Shown here in pieces: positions 837 to 8,182 of a DNA stretch of 30,371 nucleotides. Positions within the stretch are counted from its first letter, which is position 1, and the number at the start of each line of letters is the position of its first letter. The translations under genes and the position numbers were made by a program. The notes below the pieces were generated by a model, which was not told the DNA's origin, did no database searches, and saw nothing but the letters and a program-made list of their open reading frames with translations. The DNA comes from a virus: IMG/VR virus record IMGVR_UViG_3300033233_000130, positions 1 to 30,371 of that record; one strand, written 5' to 3'.

Positions 837-2510
837 TTATTGATACTCCCACATGTAACTCATATCTCCATATTCATCGGTATACCATCTATCTCCTTGG
901 TCATCGACAAATGATGTTTCCCCCACTCCATCATCAATAAAACCAAAAGGAGCCATGTCTTGTTCTAATTGATTTCTTTGTTCTTCATACAATCTTTTTC
1001 TAACATCCTGATCAGTAAGTTCTTTAAAATAATCTTGTGCAACCAACCAAGCATAAATTACCATGCACATTGCTAGATCATCGTTGCATCCTTCTTCAGC
1101 TTCAAATGAATTATTTTTTTGAATAAAGGTTGTCAGTTCACTAATAATGTTATAATCTTTGAATACTACTTTATCCTCTTCTACCAAAGTTTTTAGATTA
1201 GAGCATCCAACTTTTTTAACAGTCTTGGACATTTTAACCCCAAGTTGAGTTTTCTTACCAGAAAAACCCTGCCCTACTACCTGTCCTGCTCTACCTCTCA
1301 TGGAACACATAAGAACATTTGAATATTCCAAATCATAATTCAAAATTGATGCAACTTGATCTCCAATATCGTTGACTTCACATAAAATGTATGAATTATT
1401 ATATGCTTTTGCCATTTCATAGATGACACTTGGAAATAGCATTGGTTTGATTTCATTATTTCTATATTTTGCTACAACTTGATGAGGAAATGTTGTTATG
1501 TCAATGACAACAAATGCAGAATAATCAATTCCCACTCCACGAGCAACATCAACAGTAATCAAATAATCATGATCATCATTTGGATCTACAAACACATCCA
1601 TTCCTTCTCCATTTGTTTTAGGATCATCGTAAACTAAACTGTTCAGTTTACTTGGAGAAATTAAAGTATCAACTGATCCTAAAAATTCAGTTTCAAATTC
1701 TACTTTAAATTGTTGTTCAGATGTGTTGGCAATTGTTTGTTTCTTCCATGCAGTATCTCTTCCAGGAACTTCTGACCAATGAACTTGTGTTGTCGCATAC
1801 TCATTTTTTCCACGCTCAGCATCATGCCACATGCGATAAAAATGATTCATCCCGTGTGGAGTTGAAACTATAATAACTTTAGTTTTTTTACCTGATGAAA
1901 TTGTAGGATATACTGAAGCAAAAAATTGATCTGCAATGTTGTTTGGAATGAATGCAAATTCATCTAGAAAAATAACATTATATGAACCACCACGAACTGC
2001 AGAACTGGACGTTGAGTTTGCAGAAATTTTAGAACCGTTTTCAAGTTCTAATGATAACCTATTCCAATTTACAACACCTTGCTGCATCCATTTTGGAAGA
2101 TTCTCGTAAGCAAGTTGCAATCTTCCAAGAAGATCCTTTGCAGTGCTTGCTTTGTTTGCTAGAATTGCAATGTTGACATTATCATTAAAAACTGCATAAT
2201 GTAAAAGATATGAAACTACTGTAGTACTTTTCCCCGTCTGACGAGGCATCTTACAAATATTAAAGCGATTATCATGAAATTTTTGAATCATTTTTTCTTG
2301 AAAAGGATACATATCAAAATTGATAAGACCCTCATCAAGTGATACAATTTTTACATAATTTTTTGCAAAATAAACGGGATCATTTTTACAATGAATAAAT
2401 TCTTTAATTTGATCTTGAGTAAATTCTACTGCAACGTTTGCTTTCTTAAGATTTGGATTAGATAAGTAAGAATTATTAGATTGTAATTGAAAATCTTCAA
2501 TAGGTTTCAT
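837..2510 (-). CDS. gp17: Terminase large subunit gp17 (DNA-packaging ATPase and nuclease)
   Basis: This is the packaging motor protein: it cuts concatemeric DNA and pumps it into the prohead through the portal using ATP. At 557 residues it is slightly shorter than T4 gp17 (610). Visible motifs are Walker A MPRQTGKST (about 88-96), Walker B NVIFLDEF (178-185, with D183 and E184), the coupling motif VSTPHG (215-220), and a C-terminal RNase H-like nuclease with acidic residues at VDVARG (D321), LCEVND (E378) and NDDLAM (D477/D478). All expected catalytic residues are present, so the enzyme looks intact. The start ATG overlaps the stop of the 55-aa gene upstream (ATGA), and no Shine-Dalgarno is evident, so translation is probably coupled. 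Unlike T4, gp16 is not adjacent but four genes upstream. The C-terminus is acidic and Tyr/Trp-rich. Confidence 0.97.
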   Translation of the reverse strand: MKPIEDFQLQSNNSYLSNPNLKKANVAVEFTQDQIKEFIHCKNDPVYFAKNYVKIVSLDEGLINFDMYPFQEKMIQKFHDNRFNICKMPRQTGKSTTVVSYLLHYAVFNDNVNIAILANKASTAKDLLGRLQLAYENLPKWMQQGVVNWNRLSLELENGSKISANSTSSSAVRGGSYNVIFLDEFAFIPNNIADQFFASVYPTISSGKKTKVIIVSTPHGMNHFYRMWHDAERGKNEYATTQVHWSEVPGRDTAWKKQTIANTSEQQFKVEFETEFLGSVDTLISPSKLNSLVYDDPKTNGEGMDVFVDPNDDHDYLITVDVARGVGIDYSAFVVIDITTFPHQVVAKYRNNEIKPMLFPSVIYEMAKAYNNSYILCEVNDIGDQVASILNYDLEYSNVLMCSMRGRAGQVVGQGFSGKKTQLGVKMSKTVKKVGCSNLKTLVEEDKVVFKDYNIISELTTFIQKNNSFEAEEGCNDDLAMCMVIYAWLVAQDYFKELTDQDVRKRLYEEQRNQLEQDMAPFGFIDDGVGETSFVDDQGDRWYTDEYGDMSYMWEYQ

Positions 2511-2676: not shown

Positions 2677-4626
2677 TTAACAATTCCACTTTTTAAGTGC
2701 TAATGCTTTTCTAGTTGGTCTACCCTTTTCGTCCTTCATTGGACCTTCAACTCCTCCCATACGAGCACAGAAGGACTTTCTACGATTCGCTGACTTTGAT
2801 CCTGGTTTTAATTTTGAGGGAGGAGTAGTAACTGCCATAGAAAGTTTTGAACCTGGGTTTTCTCTTCTATAAGATTCAATACCTTTTTTATTTAACCCTC
2901 CACTAGGATTTTTACCTTCCTTACGTTGCCACGCTGCCACTTCACTAATGTCTAAATCTTCTTTGAATTTGCCAGAAACTTCTCCTTTCTCATAACCTTT
3001 TCCATCGCCATCATCATCCCACCAGCGTTTTGGTTTACCTCTTCTCTCTTGGTGTTCTGCTCTACGAGATCTTTGTTGCCCACCACCTAATGCAAGAGCA
3101 CCACTTGGATTATCATATCTCGCAAGTCTTGCTGCGGATCTTTTATAATCTGGAAGTTTCTTATCTGATTTACCTTCGTCTAGTTCTTTTTCTTCTTTTG
3201 CAAAAACAATAGTAGGATCTACCGGATCGTTTTCTCTTGGTTCAAACTGAAGCAACATTGCACCAGGATAAATTTTATTTAATTGTGATTTAATTTCTTC
3301 AGCACTTGGTCTTTTGAGTGATGGAATAAAGATTTGAACTTTGTACATCAAACCTCTCCAGGTAAATCTGATTACATAAGTTTGTCCATACTCATTGTAC
3401 CTCATAAGGTTTGATTCCTCCTTCATTGCCTTCTCTGCTTTTAATGCAAGAGTATCTTTTTTTTGTCCTGGTTTTAATTTACGTACATCTGCTTTTGGAG
3501 TTGCAAAATTTGTAGATTTTTTAGGAGATGACTTTCCTTTTTCTAATGCTTGCATATCGGAAAGTATCTCTTCTGCCTTACTTTTTAATGCTCTACTCTT
3601 CTCCTGAGACTTCTTTGTGCTAGTAGTTGCCATTCGTGCCATTCTTTCTTCTCTAGAACGAAGTGCTTCGCTAAGTCTCATCTCTTCATTTGTTGGATGA
3701 ACTTTTGCAATAGAATATTTTTCCCACAATGAAGGTCCAAAACTACATTCGGATTTAGTTTCATTTTTTTTACATAAAGGACAGTATCTCATCTCTTTCG
3801 ATTCCTTTACACAATTGTTATAAGTTTTGCCAAACATCTTTTTAGTCCCTTTTTTCTTATAACCTGGCCAGCACTTCTGTGCCTCATCAATCACTGTCTC
3901 CTCTGATTTAGTTCCCCAGTTATCAGCACCAACCTTGCGGCATTTTACAAGTGCTCCTGAGGCATAGGCAGAGGGCCAAACATCATAACGAGATTTAACT
4001 TTACTATAACAAGCATCCTTTTTTCCACTTCCCTTTGTTGGTTTATCTTTTACTTCATTTATAAATTCATCTGCCAGTGGCAGAGAAGGACCAGGAAGTT
4101 TTTTTAGAGCAGAAGACTTTTCGTTAGGATTGGTATTTCCTGTAGAAAGATTTCTGATTTTTTGCTGTCTTTGTGCAGTTCTATGTGCTGTAGAATCTAT
4201 TGAAAAACTCTGCTCATTCATTTTTTCTTTTACCAACCTATTATATTTATTCAATAAACTTTCTGTCTTGACATTAGTTGGTTTTGCTGCCCCAGTTTTT
4301 TGTGGTTGATTTGGATCTAAACGATTTTTTCTTACTTGAGACCTTTCTTCTTCTTCTGCTGATAAATTTGCTGCCATTTTAGAACTTCCGCATTTTGGTG
4401 TAGATGTTTGTCCAGATTGACGAGCGCAGGGTTTGCCCGCATATTTGCCTCCAAGTTGAACCCACCCTTTTTTACCATCGGAAGATTTTGACTTATTAAA
4501 CCAATCATGAAGACCTCCATCTCCGGACCTAGTTTCTTCTTTGACATTCTTTTTGGCATCAGACTCCATACGATGTTTCTTTGAAATTTGATTATCTGAT
4601 TTGTGCGATTTAAACTGTTCTTGCAT
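2677..4626 (-). CDS. 649-aa mosaic Lys/Cys-rich protein (DUF5872- and DUF6321-like segments)
   Basis: A basic multi-segment protein of unknown function, probably a virion or prohead component given its place among late genes. Segments in order: GDGGLHDWFNKSK with a Cys pair PCARQ...TPKCG (35-84); a charged linker; DACYSKVKSRYDVWPSAYAS and ALVKCRKVGADNWG (204-238), resembling DUF5872; CWPGYKKKG...NNCVKE (252-275); a possible zinc knuckle YCPLCKKN...SEC (281-294); an Ala/Lys-rich helix (315-365); YGQTYVIRFTWRGLMYKVQI (413-432), a small globular domain; a low-complexity GGGQQRSRR stretch; and a C-terminal GGLNKKG...SANRRKSFCARMGG...RPTRKALALKKWNC (576-649) resembling DUF6321. Several of these occur as separate small proteins in marine T4-like phages, as I recall. 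No Shine-Dalgarno precedes the ATG; an alternative Met lies at residue 20. The coding frame is continuous. Confidence 0.85.
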   Translation of the reverse strand: MQEQFKSHKSDNQISKKHRMESDAKKNVKEETRSGDGGLHDWFNKSKSSDGKKGWVQLGGKYAGKPCARQSGQTSTPKCGSSKMAANLSAEEEERSQVRKNRLDPNQPQKTGAAKPTNVKTESLLNKYNRLVKEKMNEQSFSIDSTAHRTAQRQQKIRNLSTGNTNPNEKSSALKKLPGPSLPLADEFINEVKDKPTKGSGKKDACYSKVKSRYDVWPSAYASGALVKCRKVGADNWGTKSEETVIDEAQKCWPGYKKKGTKKMFGKTYNNCVKESKEMRYCPLCKKNETKSECSFGPSLWEKYSIAKVHPTNEEMRLSEALRSREERMARMATTSTKKSQEKSRALKSKAEEILSDMQALEKGKSSPKKSTNFATPKADVRKLKPGQKKDTLALKAEKAMKEESNLMRYNEYGQTYVIRFTWRGLMYKVQIFIPSLKRPSAEEIKSQLNKIYPGAMLLQFEPRENDPVDPTIVFAKEEKELDEGKSDKKLPDYKRSAARLARYDNPSGALALGGGQQRSRRAEHQERRGKPKRWWDDDGDGKGYEKGEVSGKFKEDLDISEVAAWQRKEGKNPSGGLNKKGIESYRRENPGSKLSMAVTTPPSKLKPGSKSANRRKSFCARMGGVEGPMKDEKGRPTRKALALKKWNC

Positions 4627-4648: not shown

Positions 4649-4975
4649 TTATCCAAGAATAAAACTTGTGGATCCAATTCCAACTGCAGTAAAAGTAAGA
4701 ATTCCATTTGAAATAGAAATTTTGACAGGTGATGTATTTGCAACACTAATAAATCCACCAATGGAAGTTACAATACCAGATACATTAACAGATTGTGCTG
4801 TAAATTGTGTTGATGAGGTAATTCCTAATGTAGAAATTCCAGAAGAATTTAAATTTGTTACTGAAGCAATACCACCTACTACGTCTGTAGATACCCCTGC
4901 AGTGTCTGCGTATGATGTGATACCTGCTCTTGTAGCGTAAATTGTTGTTGCTGTTGTTACTACTTTATAACTCAT
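4649..4975 (-). CDS. 108-aa Thr/Ser/Gly-rich beta protein, fibre-like
   Basis: A small protein dominated by Thr, Ser, Gly, Ile and Val, with repeats of the type YADTAGVST and GGIASVTNLNSSGISTLG, ending in PVKISISNGILTFTAVGIGS. Such sequence is typical of stalk or tip segments in fibre-like proteins of marine myoviruses, and it carries the GIGST motif seen in many other virion proteins here. It has no Cys, signal peptide or membrane segment. The ATG overlaps the TAA of the 109-aa gene by one base (TAATG), so the pair is probably translated together and may act together. A role as a small virion decoration or fibre accessory is inference; I cannot name it. Confidence 0.75.
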   Translation of the reverse strand: MSYKVVTTATTIYATRAGITSYADTAGVSTDVVGGIASVTNLNSSGISTLGITSSTQFTAQSVNVSGIVTSIGGFISVANTSPVKISISNGILTFTAVGIGSTSFILG

Positions 4976-5304
4976 TAGATTGATTGGGATGAGATTACCA
5001 TAACCATTCCTTCTACTATCTTTGTTTTTTTAGATTCCGGAGAAAATATTAATACATCATAATAGTATCTTCCTGGAGATAAGTTGCTAGTAATAGTATT
5101 GCCCATGGAAATAGCAACCTTGCCAGCAGCAGAATTTATTCCAACAGAAAATGATGTTGAAGTCGAAGATTCAGGAAATCTTTTAAGTTTTGAGACCGCA
5201 GAAAAACCAGTCAGAGGGACTGTGGATCCATCAGGATTTGAAACATCAAATGACTCTTCGAAATCAGTTCCTTTATCAATAATTAAATTAACTACTGCAG
5301 ACAT
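4975..5304 (-). CDS. 109-aa beta-sandwich virion protein, BppU-N-like fold
   Basis: The sequence begins MSAVVNLIIDKGTDFEESFD and continues GSTVPLTGFSAVSKLKR, then LSPGRYYYDVLIFSPE and a VEGMVMV end. This pattern (strand, 'KG..F', 'LTGF.A..K.R', 'L.PG.Y.YD') is a compact immunoglobulin-like or baseplate-upper-protein N-domain type found in small phage structural proteins, including those of marine T4-like phages. It likely sits on the virion, but its position there is unknown. A short purine stretch (AAAGAAAG) just before the ATG may serve as a weak ribosome site. It is followed without a gap by the 108-aa gene (TAATG overlap). Confidence 0.78.
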   Translation of the reverse strand: MSAVVNLIIDKGTDFEESFDVSNPDGSTVPLTGFSAVSKLKRFPESSTSTSFSVGINSAAGKVAISMGNTITSNLSPGRYYYDVLIFSPESKKTKIVEGMVMVISSQSI

Positions 5305-5318
5305 CTTTCTTTTTTATT

Positions 5319-5762
5319 CTATTTATGATTTAGATCTTGAGTTTTTAAAATCTTAGACAATTCTGTCGTTGATCCAATGAACAGTGCATTTGTAACATTG
5401 GTAGGACCTTTTTGTGAATTATCTCCCAAATCTTTCATTTTTTTCTGCAAATCAATTACTTTATCTGTGGTATCTGCAACACTTTTAATCAATTGTCCTG
5501 CAACTTCATAAGCTCTTGGACTATCGCTTTCTTGTGCTAATTCCAAAATTCCATTAATTGCTTCTTGCCCTTTTTCTATTAAGGAATATAAATTTCCTCT
5601 TGTATACTCATAGTCTTTTTTTATTTGATTTATTTTAGATTCTGAATTATTTACTTCGATAACATCCGGGATATTTAATGAATCTGTAGACACTACTGTA
5701 GATTCTATTTCCAAAGATTGACCAATTGGATCTGATGCTTTTTTAGATTTGGGATTTGTCAT
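5319..5762 (-). CDS. gp16: Terminase small subunit gp16
   Basis: The small terminase forms a ring that recognises DNA and stimulates the gp17 ATPase and nuclease at packaging initiation. At 147 residues it is close to T4 gp16 (164). The central helical region (about 50-112) contains SPRAYEVAGQLIKSV and LQKKMKDL, matching the 'DSPRH.EV...M' and 'LHKDMKD' core of T4 gp16. The C-terminal NVTNALFIGSTTELSKIL matches T4 'NIQNATVFMGSPTELM'. The N-terminal 40 residues are variable and probably disordered. It starts two bases after the gp15 stop, keeping the T4 gp15-gp16 order, but is separated from gp17 by four genes. No Shine-Dalgarno is seen, so coupling to gp15 is likely. Confidence 0.92.
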   Translation of the reverse strand: MTNPKSKKASDPIGQSLEIESTVVSTDSLNIPDVIEVNNSESKINQIKKDYEYTRGNLYSLIEKGQEAINGILELAQESDSPRAYEVAGQLIKSVADTTDKVIDLQKKMKDLGDNSQKGPTNVTNALFIGSTTELSKILKTQDLNHK

Positions 5763-6800: not shown

Positions 6801-6819
6801 AAATAGTTTTTAACTATTT
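6801..6819 (-). other. Perfect 8-bp inverted repeat just before the gp15 start
   Basis: On the minus strand AAATAGTT, a three-base AAA loop, then AACTATTT. The stem is AT-rich with a single G-C pair, so it is weak. It covers the gap between the gp14 stop (6818-6820) and the gp15 ATG (6796), ending four bases from the ATG where a ribosome site would normally be. There is no following T-run, so it is not a standard terminator. It may modulate gp15 initiation or be a chance palindrome. Confidence 0.4.
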
Positions 6820-8182
6820 AGTATGTTCCAAAGGGACTAGTTTCATTAAAATCTAAAATTTGATCTGCTTCTACTTCAATCTCATCATTATCATCGTTTT
6901 CTGTATTGTTATAATCAATGCTCTTAATTATATATTGAGATCCTGACTTATCGCCAGTTACAATCTCACCGATTTTGAATTTATGATCACTCACCATACT
7001 TATTTCTAGAATTGCTGATGATTTTGTCCAAGTTTTTACTCTTGCAGTAACTCCTGAATTTTGTGCAGTAATTTGTTCATTATTTAAAAATGTACCAATA
7101 CCTAATGTTGATGCAGCACCAATTGTGATTGTTGGTGGCATTGTATATCCTAAACCAGAGTTTGCAATTCTAATCTGTCTTATAGTTCCAGCAGAACTTA
7201 CTATTGCCTCTCCAGTTGCAGTAATTCCCCATCCAACATTAGGAGATGAAAATGTTACTGTAGGAATTGTTACATATTTACTTCCACCTGATGATATAGT
7301 CACAACACCAACTGATCCCTGCGTTGAAATACCTGCTGTAACTATGCCAACACCAGAAATAGTTATTGTTGGAATTCCCACGTATCCTCTACCTGGGTTT
7401 ATTAACAAAACTTTTTGAATTGACGATGATGTAGTAATCCCCGATTTTGATGTTAAAATTCCAACCCCTGTGGCAGTAATTCCTCCTGCAGGAGCAGTAC
7501 TAATAGAAACATTAGGTGGATTTTTATATCCATACCCAGGATACTCTACAAATAAAGTTCTAATTGCACCATCAACTAGTCCTGTAAATGCCGTTGCAGT
7601 ACTACCAATACCAGATAGAGTCAATGTTACAATGTGTCCATCATTTTGAAGAACGGTATCTATTTCTTCATTTCCAACGTCAATTAGTTCATCCTCATAC
7701 TCAAAGAGTTCGCATTTGAGTTCATAGGTATAGAGTTTTCCTAACTGATAAAAAGGTTTTTCGTGCTCTACGAATTTAATTTCGAAAAAATTCTTTGATA
7801 AAGGAAAATAAATTATGTCACCTTCCTTCGGTCTGTTGCGAACATATTTATCAATAGTTTCATCTAAAAATGGTCCAACAACAATTTCAAATCTCTCTCT
7901 AGAAATGGTTAATACTAATTCATCTTTTTGAAATAATCCAAACTTGGAAAGAATGTCACCTTGACCAGAAAATCCATCAAAAGTATTTACATAAGCTTCT
8001 AGTGGAAAAGATTGTTCAAATGAAGATTGAATAACTTCTTCTATTATTTTTTTTGTTGTTAGGAATTTTCTCGGAATGTATATACACTCAATTCCGAACA
8101 TTTTAATTTGTTCGTTAACGAGATCTTGAATCAAACCTTGTTCTGTTTGAGTTGCTTGATTGAAAAATGGATTTAATGCCAC
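6818..8182 (-). CDS. gp14: Neck protein gp14 with inserted GxGY repeats
   Basis: Gp14 is a head-to-tail connector protein acting with gp13 at the neck. The N-terminal about 165 residues match T4 gp14: LVNEQIKMFGIECIYIPRKF, LEAYVNTFDGF, LSKFGLFQKDEL, EGDIIYFPLSKNFFEI and EKPFYQLGKLYTYEL. The C-terminus LDFNETSPFGTY resembles the 'ESSPFDN' tail of T4 gp14. Between them T4 has a short linker, whereas this 454-residue protein (T4 about 256) carries at least four beta repeats with GYGYKNPPNVSI, GRGYVGIPTITI, SKYVTIPTVTF and GLGYTMPPTITI (about 201-360). The start is GTG, four bases after the gp13 stop; a TAGG about eight bases upstream may act as ribosome site. No in-frame ATG lies between the gp13 stop and this GTG. 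Confidence 0.93.
   Translation of the reverse strand: MALNPFFNQATQTEQGLIQDLVNEQIKMFGIECIYIPRKFLTTKKIIEEVIQSSFEQSFPLEAYVNTFDGFSGQGDILSKFGLFQKDELVLTISRERFEIVVGPFLDETIDKYVRNRPKEGDIIYFPLSKNFFEIKFVEHEKPFYQLGKLYTYELKCELFEYEDELIDVGNEEIDTVLQNDGHIVTLTLSGIGSTATAFTGLVDGAIRTLFVEYPGYGYKNPPNVSISTAPAGGITATGVGILTSKSGITTSSSIQKVLLINPGRGYVGIPTITISGVGIVTAGISTQGSVGVVTISSGGSKYVTIPTVTFSSPNVGWGITATGEAIVSSAGTIRQIRIANSGLGYTMPPTITIGAASTLGIGTFLNNEQITAQNSGVTARVKTWTKSSAILEISMVSDHKFKIGEIVTGDKSGSQYIIKSIDYNNTENDDNDEIEVEADQILDFNETSPFGTY
7103..7582 (-). repeat. Four tandem GxGY...PPxxxI beta repeats within gp14
   Basis: Residues about 201-360 of gp14 contain four diverged copies of a roughly 35-45 residue unit: strand, Gly-x-Gly-Tyr turn, (P)P-x-(V/I)-x-(I/F), then a GIG/TATG-type segment. 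The copies are degenerate at DNA level. The same unit is present in gp8, the 1490-aa protein, the 2540-aa protein and the gp7-like protein. Confidence 0.8.

Follow-up and report, generated by a model that had tools for sequence, protein, structure and literature searches.

The window analysed here is a stretch of 30,371 nucleotides, positions 1 to 30,371 of the IMG/VR virus record IMGVR_UViG_3300033233_000130, and the subject of this report is the gene that lies on its minus strand between the genes for the small (TerS) and large (TerL) terminase subunits of a T4-like phage (Table 1). Judged by its relatives, the window would come from a T4-like phage of the marine cyanophage or pelagiphage kind. 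The gene is a single ATG-started frame encoding 649 amino acids (aa), and the plus strand across the same interval is stop-rich. The protein contains 139 K+R and 83 D+E residues (net charge +56, pI 9.8) and 11 cysteines. It matches phrog_727 over aa 9-649 (3.5e-99), a library entry of unknown function that carries no remark on processing or targeting.

An earlier note, made from the letters alone, had read this gene as a mosaic of small Cys/Lys-rich proteins joined in one frame, and all five segment motifs quoted there are present in the translation; the strong positive charge, the conserved cysteines and the location beside terminase that it pointed to are likewise found. Seven segments, named M1 to M6 with M3b, were delimited along the chain. 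M6 is a member of DUF6321 (PF19846), a Pfam domain of unknown function, which here is one among several modules (aa 571-647, 78.1 bits with a gathering cut-off of 28.5, 8.2e-22). The other family named in the note, DUF5872 (PF19197), fares differently: the window protein has no match to its model at E <= 10 and does not reach its gathering cut-off, whereas two stand-alone relatives of M1 are members (1.3e-15 and 7.2e-15) and are reached by the M1 profile at 2.5e-6 and 4.6e-5. An algal giant virus has also been listed with DUF5872 (PMC12085832), in the one paper mentioning that family among those searched; none of them mentions DUF6321. The cysteine pairs of M1 and M2 are invariant in a 64-row alignment, and Cys 620 and 649 of M6 are at least 90% conserved in it. 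The zinc-knuckle-like character that the note had given to CPLCKKN finds no backing in Pfam, where the only zinc-type family matched is the PaaD zinc ribbon PF23451; its 9 bits, with the cut-off at 27, amount to nothing.

Table 1. Features of the window discussed in the text. All cleavage sites are predicted from the motif; fractions give the relatives with the motif near the aligned column among those with residues there.
Feature	Residues	Positions	Strand	Basis or remark
TerL (gp17)		837..2510	minus	phrog_2, 1.9e-74
649-aa modular precursor, phrog_727 family		2677..4626	minus	predicted internal-head polyprotein
M6, DUF6321, C-terminal Cys at end	564-649	2680..2937	minus	PF19846, 8.2e-22
Predicted site ISE562|V, before M6		2941..2949	minus	19/47 by aligned column; 61/87 M6 boundaries by window
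M5, RRGKPKRWWDDDGDG	496-552	2971..3141	minus	present in few relatives
Predicted site LDE484|G, M4/M5 junction		3175..3183	minus	20/42
M4, beta-beta-alpha-beta in model	413-463	3238..3390	minus	AlphaFold2, pLDDT about 86-96
Predicted site MKE403|E, before M4		3418..3426	minus	34/52
Possible site LSE320|A, M3b/helical linker		3667..3675	minus	2/10, weak
M3b, RYCPLCKK...SEC, Cys motif, putative metal binding	278-306	3709..3795	minus	profile survey
Possible site VKE275|S, M3/M3b junction		3802..3810	minus	4/53, weak
M3, CWPGYKKKG...NNCVK, two strands in model	250-275	3802..3879	minus	profile survey
Predicted site IDE248|A, before M3		3883..3891	minus	39/55
M2, DACYSKVKSRYDVWPSAYASGALVKCRKVG, Cys 206 and 229	200-242	3901..4029	minus	matches in phage records, solo genes
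Predicted site INE191|V, before M2		4054..4062	minus	55/60
Possible site VKE134|K, after M1		4225..4233	minus	9/21
M1, DUF5872-like, Cys 67 and 79	36-122	4261..4521	minus	grown profile
Predicted site VKE30|E, before M1		4537..4545	minus	16/26
TerS (gp16)		5319..5762	minus	phrog_445, 1.2e-50

The AlphaFold2 model of the full protein (64-row alignment) shows confident stretches of module size separated by low-confidence linkers, with a mean predicted local distance difference test score (pLDDT) of 69 and a predicted template modelling score (pTM) of 0.28. A separate model of M6, made from 70 rows, has high confidence (pLDDT 90.5, pTM 0.72), with no match in the PDB by Foldseek at E <= 10 and nothing at Z 2 among the 2 chains compared. 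The full model has no PDB match at E <= 0.001. At the sequence level the window protein has no match among solved structures at E <= 10, and the sole match of the M6 profile is LHD101A54 (E 0.11). Weak fold resemblances over the M4 region (Z up to 5.2) to chains such as those of the T7 Gp2 complex, phi29 p6, RB69 Dmd and ribosomal LX were set aside as too weak. The best match of the model in BFVD (8e-26) is the 'Virion protein' of cyanophage S-SCSM1, a homologue, which does not in itself give a function.

In other viruses the modules are found as separate genes. At least two modules lie on separate open reading frames (ORFs) without an M1-M2 fusion in 35 of 369 loci, a count that includes fused genes that are truncated and accompanied by an M4 gene (loci L005 and L006) and partial fusions such as M2-M3. 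In locus L279, M2 (57 aa), M1 (93 aa) and M6 (105 aa) are consecutive genes, in Roseobacter phage CRP-7 solo M6 and M2 genes stand shortly before TerL, and in three further loci (L269, L271, L277) M6 and M2 are close to an HTVC023P-like capsid gene. In the window protein, parts that other viruses make as small proteins, often from neighbouring genes, are thus fused into one chain, and the mosaic half of the earlier reading was right.

Relatives of the protein occur in 525 of 50,697 phage records (tblastn, E <= 1e-5), far more than chance would give, and none of these records covers 80% of the 649 residues. Searched singly in the same records at E <= 0.01, the modules M1, M2, M4 and M6 were found in 355, 366, 50 and 544 of them, respectively. 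Profiles built up from the window sequence detected M1 and M2 together in 249 ORFs of the fetched loci, that of the window included, in 35 architectures. M1 precedes M2 in every one of these ORFs and M6 is last in all 207 that have it; thus the outer order is fixed and the content variable. M4 is part of the chain, has its own gene immediately downstream, or occurs in both ways, and M5 gave seven matches over six ORFs, counting the window's own.

Motifs at the module joints and capsid-targeting sequences

The prohead protease gp21 of T4 cuts after L/I-X-E (PMC9026906, in the part of the text available). The new point in the present family is that its linkers carry a gp21-like motif at the module joints. 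Among 132 non-redundant fused relatives, [LIVM]xE is present within 12 residues upstream of the module start at 418 of 493 boundaries (85%), compared with 27% for linkers shuffled in place, and the strict T4 form [LI]xE at 226 (46%, shuffled 16%). The control motifs [LI]xD, [LI]xK, [ND]xE and [AG]xE are each below their own shuffle at module boundaries. When dissimilar contexts only are counted (M1, M2, M3, M4, M6), so that shared descent weighs less, 133 of 165 carry the motif, where 1000 shuffles gave 44 on average and 65 at most. The glutamate is most commonly followed by A, E, V or G. Along the window protein, M1, M2, M3, M4, M5 and M6 are each preceded by the motif, in two cases with V or M in place of L/I, a resemblance to gp21 sites at the level of the motif; together with the two possible sites around M3b this gives eight joint sites (all those of Table 1 save VKE134|K). 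The predicted pieces are of 3-11 kDa and mostly of pI > 9, with an acidic M4 piece (5.2) and an M3b piece near neutrality (7.7).

The capsid-targeting sequence (CTS) of T4 comprises 10 residues, of which residues 4 and 7 serve targeting and residues 8 and 10 processing (PMC9026906), and the internal proteins IPII and IPIII begin with MKTYQEFIAE|A (NC_000866). The pattern tested was an aromatic residue at positions 4 and 7, I/L at 8 and E at 10, starting at Met. Solo M4 ORFs carry the sequence in the exact T4 register (MKSFQQFISE|S, MKSYSEFLSE|S, MKSFKEFISE|S, MKTYRQFLSE|N). The pattern is found in 52 of 56 solo M4 ORFs, 15 of 58 solo M6 ORFs and 51 of 21,582 unlabelled ORFs, and in none of those labelled TerL (157), TerS (171), gp13 (132), gp14 (152), gp15 (167) or sheath (95). 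It occurs twice on the minus strand of the window (197, 7512), each time in another frame than the ORFs at that place. The idea that linkers of fused proteins generally carry a CTS-like aromatic pattern was rejected (13 seen, 10.9 expected from shuffling); six of those 13 directly precede M6.

Five annotated genes of cyanophage S-CREM2 (OR473000) start with the CTS pattern, namely the S-adenosylmethionine (SAM) hydrolase gp6, the 78-aa gp13, the APH/ChoK-like kinase gp14 (GTG start), the cytidylyltransferase gp154, and gp175. All but the last are in the virion proteome obtained by mass spectrometry (MS; Table 3 of PMC10665884), compared with 52 of about 219 coding sequences (p 0.012; 221 features minus the two tRNAs seen), and gp136, a looser match (MQTFSMFFSE|D), is in the same table. 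Among the annotated genes of S-SCSM1 the NMNAT alone has the pattern at its start (MKSFLQFLKE|A), and it is tagged as virion protein in the record. The cytidylyltransferase/NMNAT genes of four phages (loci L390 to L393) share such a start: S-CREM2 (MKNFSSFLTE|A), S-SCSM1 as given above, S-SM1 (MKKFSAFLNE|A) and Syn9 (MKKFSAFLSE|A). The S-SM1 virion contains a cytidylyltransferase, presumably the product of this gene, and that of S-PM2 is listed among proteins undetected in its virion (both in the accessible part of PMC3037559); the copies of S-PM2 and HTVC008M do not fit the CTS register.

A CTS would explain the detection of cytidylyltransferase/NMNAT proteins in virions of these T4-like cyanophages, targeting of this kind seems to be functional in the group, and S-CREM2 gp6, gp13 and gp14 are candidate packed effectors. 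The S-SCSM1 and S-CREM2 papers propose that such enzymes may be carried in the virion, and their available text names no targeting signal (PMC9602691, PMC10665884). In the literature search, 'cyanophage' and 'capsid targeting sequence' co-occurred only where cyanophage is a word in the title of a reference. The CTS together with [LIVM]xE is offered as a sequence rule to predict head-packed proteins of these phages; it picks the four S-CREM2 virion proteins and the S-SCSM1 NMNAT.

Virion data, the prohead protease and competing explanations

Two homologues of the window protein are connected with virions. The S-CREM2 homologue gp137, which consists of M4 and M6 only, is in the MS virion table with four unique peptides (PMC10665884). 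The S-SCSM1 homologue SSCSM1_29 (M1-M2-M3-M3b-M4-M6) is labelled 'virion protein' in the record, in which neither TerS nor TerL is so labelled. The paper on this phage gives 45 MS-detected proteins (PMC9602691, in the part available), and since three enzymes that it names as detected are all tagged in the record, the label likely means detection by MS.

The gp21 protease family PF03420 was found in 21 of 25 records with a fused gene, 17 of 21 metagenomic contigs and all four complete isolates, and in none of ten solo-module isolates belonging to other types of phage (Fisher p 5e-6). The contigs, long ones and close relatives, were chosen from about 245 fused loci and joined by four cyanophage isolates, the 25 include S-CREM2 with its short M4-M6 form and L031 (M3-M4-M6), and the comparison set comprises all ten solo-module isolates fetched until then. 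Two of these relatives whose fused gene has the same architecture as the window protein (L163 and L164) both contain PF03420.

The gene product is probably an internal-head precursor, made by a T4-like myophage and cut by gp21 into small head peptides; the cleavage is predicted from the sequence. The precursor would enter the prohead core, where a gp21-type serine protease would cut it after [LIVM]-x-E just upstream of each module. About eight small peptides of 3-11 kDa, mostly basic, would be released; five of them (with M1, M2, M3, M3b and M6) would hold two or three cysteines, and the M4 piece would be a compact fold. The peptides would remain in the head alongside the packaged DNA and may reach the next cell with it. 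Other viruses encode the same modules as separate small genes, and some solo M4 and M6 carry their own 10-residue CTS. The cleavage itself, the location inside the head and the retention of the peptides are what we infer. As for their job, our guess is that they neutralise or organise DNA, or act on the newly infected host like T4 IPI.

The earlier note had suggested an internal head protein, one that might be injected with DNA, and had named processing between segments as a test. The internal head location and the processing gain indirect support from the motifs at the joints, the CTS of solo modules and the MS-listed and tagged homologues, with the unlabelled homologues described below on the opposite side; the internal-head half of that reading is probably right. 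The outcome that the note had set against itself was a non-virion protein of a single known enzyme family; this did not arise, the Pfam search of the window protein having given no enzyme domain.

The nearest known systems are the T4 internal proteins IPI, IPII and IPIII, which are likewise small basic proteins cut by gp21 after L/I-x-E and whose CTS register is shared by solo M4 and some M6. They are single proteins, each with its own CTS, whereas here seven modules are joined in one chain that has no CTS at its N-terminus. As proposed, the precursor works like these proteins, yet it is not classed as one of them, because the N-terminal CTS is missing and the cleavage is a prediction. The polyvalent proteins of phages and plasmids (PMC5512222) also combine disparate domains in one virion-associated chain with possible proteolytic release, but many of their domains are enzymatic, with peptidases discussed, and the window protein, which has none of these in Pfam, does not belong with them; the text of that paper contains neither the term cyanophage nor the term marine.

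A broader statement, on which we are evenly divided, is that the gene represents a true head-cargo polyprotein of cyanophage-kind T4-like phages, a single gene that yields several different small head peptides at once through cutting by the prohead protease. Its modules would be drawn from a stock of independent genes shared by unrelated phages (and, in the case of DUF5872, an algal giant virus), and a working T4-type CTS would explain the presence in cyanophage virions of enzymes such as the NMNAT/cytidylyltransferase and the SAM hydrolase.

Several observations weigh against the internal-head precursor. The window protein starts with MQEQFKSHKS and has no N-terminal CTS, nor do most of its fused relatives, the pattern being present in only two M1+M2 ORFs, so the entry of the fused protein into the prohead is left unexplained. 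The motif was first noticed by eye, and the width of [LIVM] chosen, in the same data in which it was later counted. The strict T4 motif fits only five of the eight joint sites (INE, IDE, LSE, LDE and ISE), and the two sites flanking M3b are unconserved. With respect to the protease, PF03420 was not found in four of the 21 metagenomic contigs with a fused gene, and among 25 chosen contigs with solo M6, with or without a CTS and mostly short, it was found in three and the gp23 family PF07068 in four. The window stops within the gene after TerL, short of the place of gp21 and gp23 in the relatives. As for the virion data, the S-SCSM1 record has 48 tagged genes for the 45 proteins of the paper, so that tags and MS do not match exactly, and the coverage of S-CREM2 gp137 is just 4.1%. 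The homologues Syn9 gp114 and S-SM1 SSM1_115 have no virion label in their GenBank features, and both phages had proteomics. The fifth S-CREM2 gene with a CTS, gp175, is absent from the MS table, and a solo M4 of S-SCSM1 with the CTS MKTFKQFMSE (Met at position 8) is untagged.

Low coverage and missing labels would fit removal from the head, as would be expected if the protein were a core or scaffold component like T4 gp22, gp67 and gp68, cut by gp21 and mostly expelled, with the single modules having no function in the mature head. Such proteins also have several predicted gp21 sites per chain, they are cut into several fragments that are mostly removed (PMC9026906), and the scaffolds of S-SCSM1 and Syn9 are likewise rich in LxE motifs. 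In the present protein, however, what lies between the sites are modules that are conserved, rich in Cys or compactly folded. M2 is 51-92% identical across 29 loci of a genome collection, and the modules exist as solo genes, also in the ten phages where PF03420 was not found, neither of which scaffold helices would need. A core or scaffold role is thus unlikely. It is distinctly improbable that the gene, which sits among neck and terminase genes and whose chain is rich in E and K, encodes an unprocessed multi-domain DNA-binding or tail/neck structural protein with LxE reflecting acidic linker composition: shuffles that preserve the linkers fall far below the observed frequency, the control motifs are depleted, solo M4 ORFs carry a textbook CTS, and protease and fused gene co-occur. 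A packaging-motor accessory acting with gp16/gp17 in the infected cell, present in virions as contamination, is suggested by the position (in a first survey of 169 M1+M2 ORFs, in loci often truncated, a TerS homologue was in the locus of 145 and a TerL homologue in that of 108) and by the solo modules near terminase in CRP-7 (M6 and M2) and Venkman (M6), but is very improbable, as the S-SCSM1 homologue is tagged and its terminases are not, solo M6 is also found between scaffold and capsid genes or in stretches with no annotated terminase, and the gp16-gp17 interval has been described as a hotspot for variable genes (PMC3037559), so that position alone says little.

As an internal-head precursor, a gene product that is widespread, large, endlessly variable in make-up and otherwise unexplained would gain a function open to testing. 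If the peptides enter the host, they would be candidates for factors of early infection or against host defence, and the hosts concerned are abundant marine ones.

Surroundings of the gene and of its modules

Transcriptionally upstream of the mosaic gene are homologues of gp13, gp14, gp15 and TerS, followed by two small ORFs; downstream are a 60-aa ORF, TerL, and an ORF at the place of the tail sheath gene. One of the two small ORFs on the TerS side (4975-5304) matches phrog_3304, L-shaped tail fibre assembly, at 2e-24. The gp14 homologue (6818-8182) is 454 aa long; its first part matches head-closure families and the remainder matches families of large fibres, baseplates and virion proteins, which looks like an extension by repeats.

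Among annotated isolates, the solo M6 gene lies between scaffold and capsid genes in HTVC031P, between head assembly and major head protein genes in S-CBP4, three genes past the capsid in HTVC023P, two genes ahead of terminase in Venkman, near the endolysin in HTVC010P, and among tail and lysis genes in Planktothrix phage Pag-Yong1. In uncultivated virus contigs its neighbours are ferritin-like, cytidyltransferase, GroEL or DNA ligase genes and show no single theme (20 neighbours compared with PHROGs; one ferritin match in Pfam); in one of these contigs (L039:4878-5694) a solo M6 with a targeting sequence immediately precedes a ferritin-like gene (PF00210, 3.7e-22).

The 29 genome-collection loci found with M2 are all titled as metagenome-assembled genomes (MAGs), and because seven of them hold terminase or capsid genes detected with phage queries, no cellular origin is claimed for M2. 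A WOR-3 MAG chromosome (L288:5782-7005) has an independent fusion in which M2 is joined to an M1-like segment and to another Cys module (KVNYGD...FAARHNC...YWACR); the last of these modules is found in 20 phage records, for example beside the cytidyltransferase gene of HTVC008M. On a Gemmatimonadota MAG chromosome (L290:5848-6339), inside a 4.7-Mb contig, a 164-aa ORF consists of M2 and a DUF5872 match (3.3e-8).

Among the M6 sequences compared, DUF6321 ends at, or a few residues from, an invariant cysteine. Its second half varies (KGMKKKLTS..., GVEGPMKDEKGRPTRK..., QQDMHNIDCSK...) and is found on differing first halves, which amounts to mosaicism within one domain.

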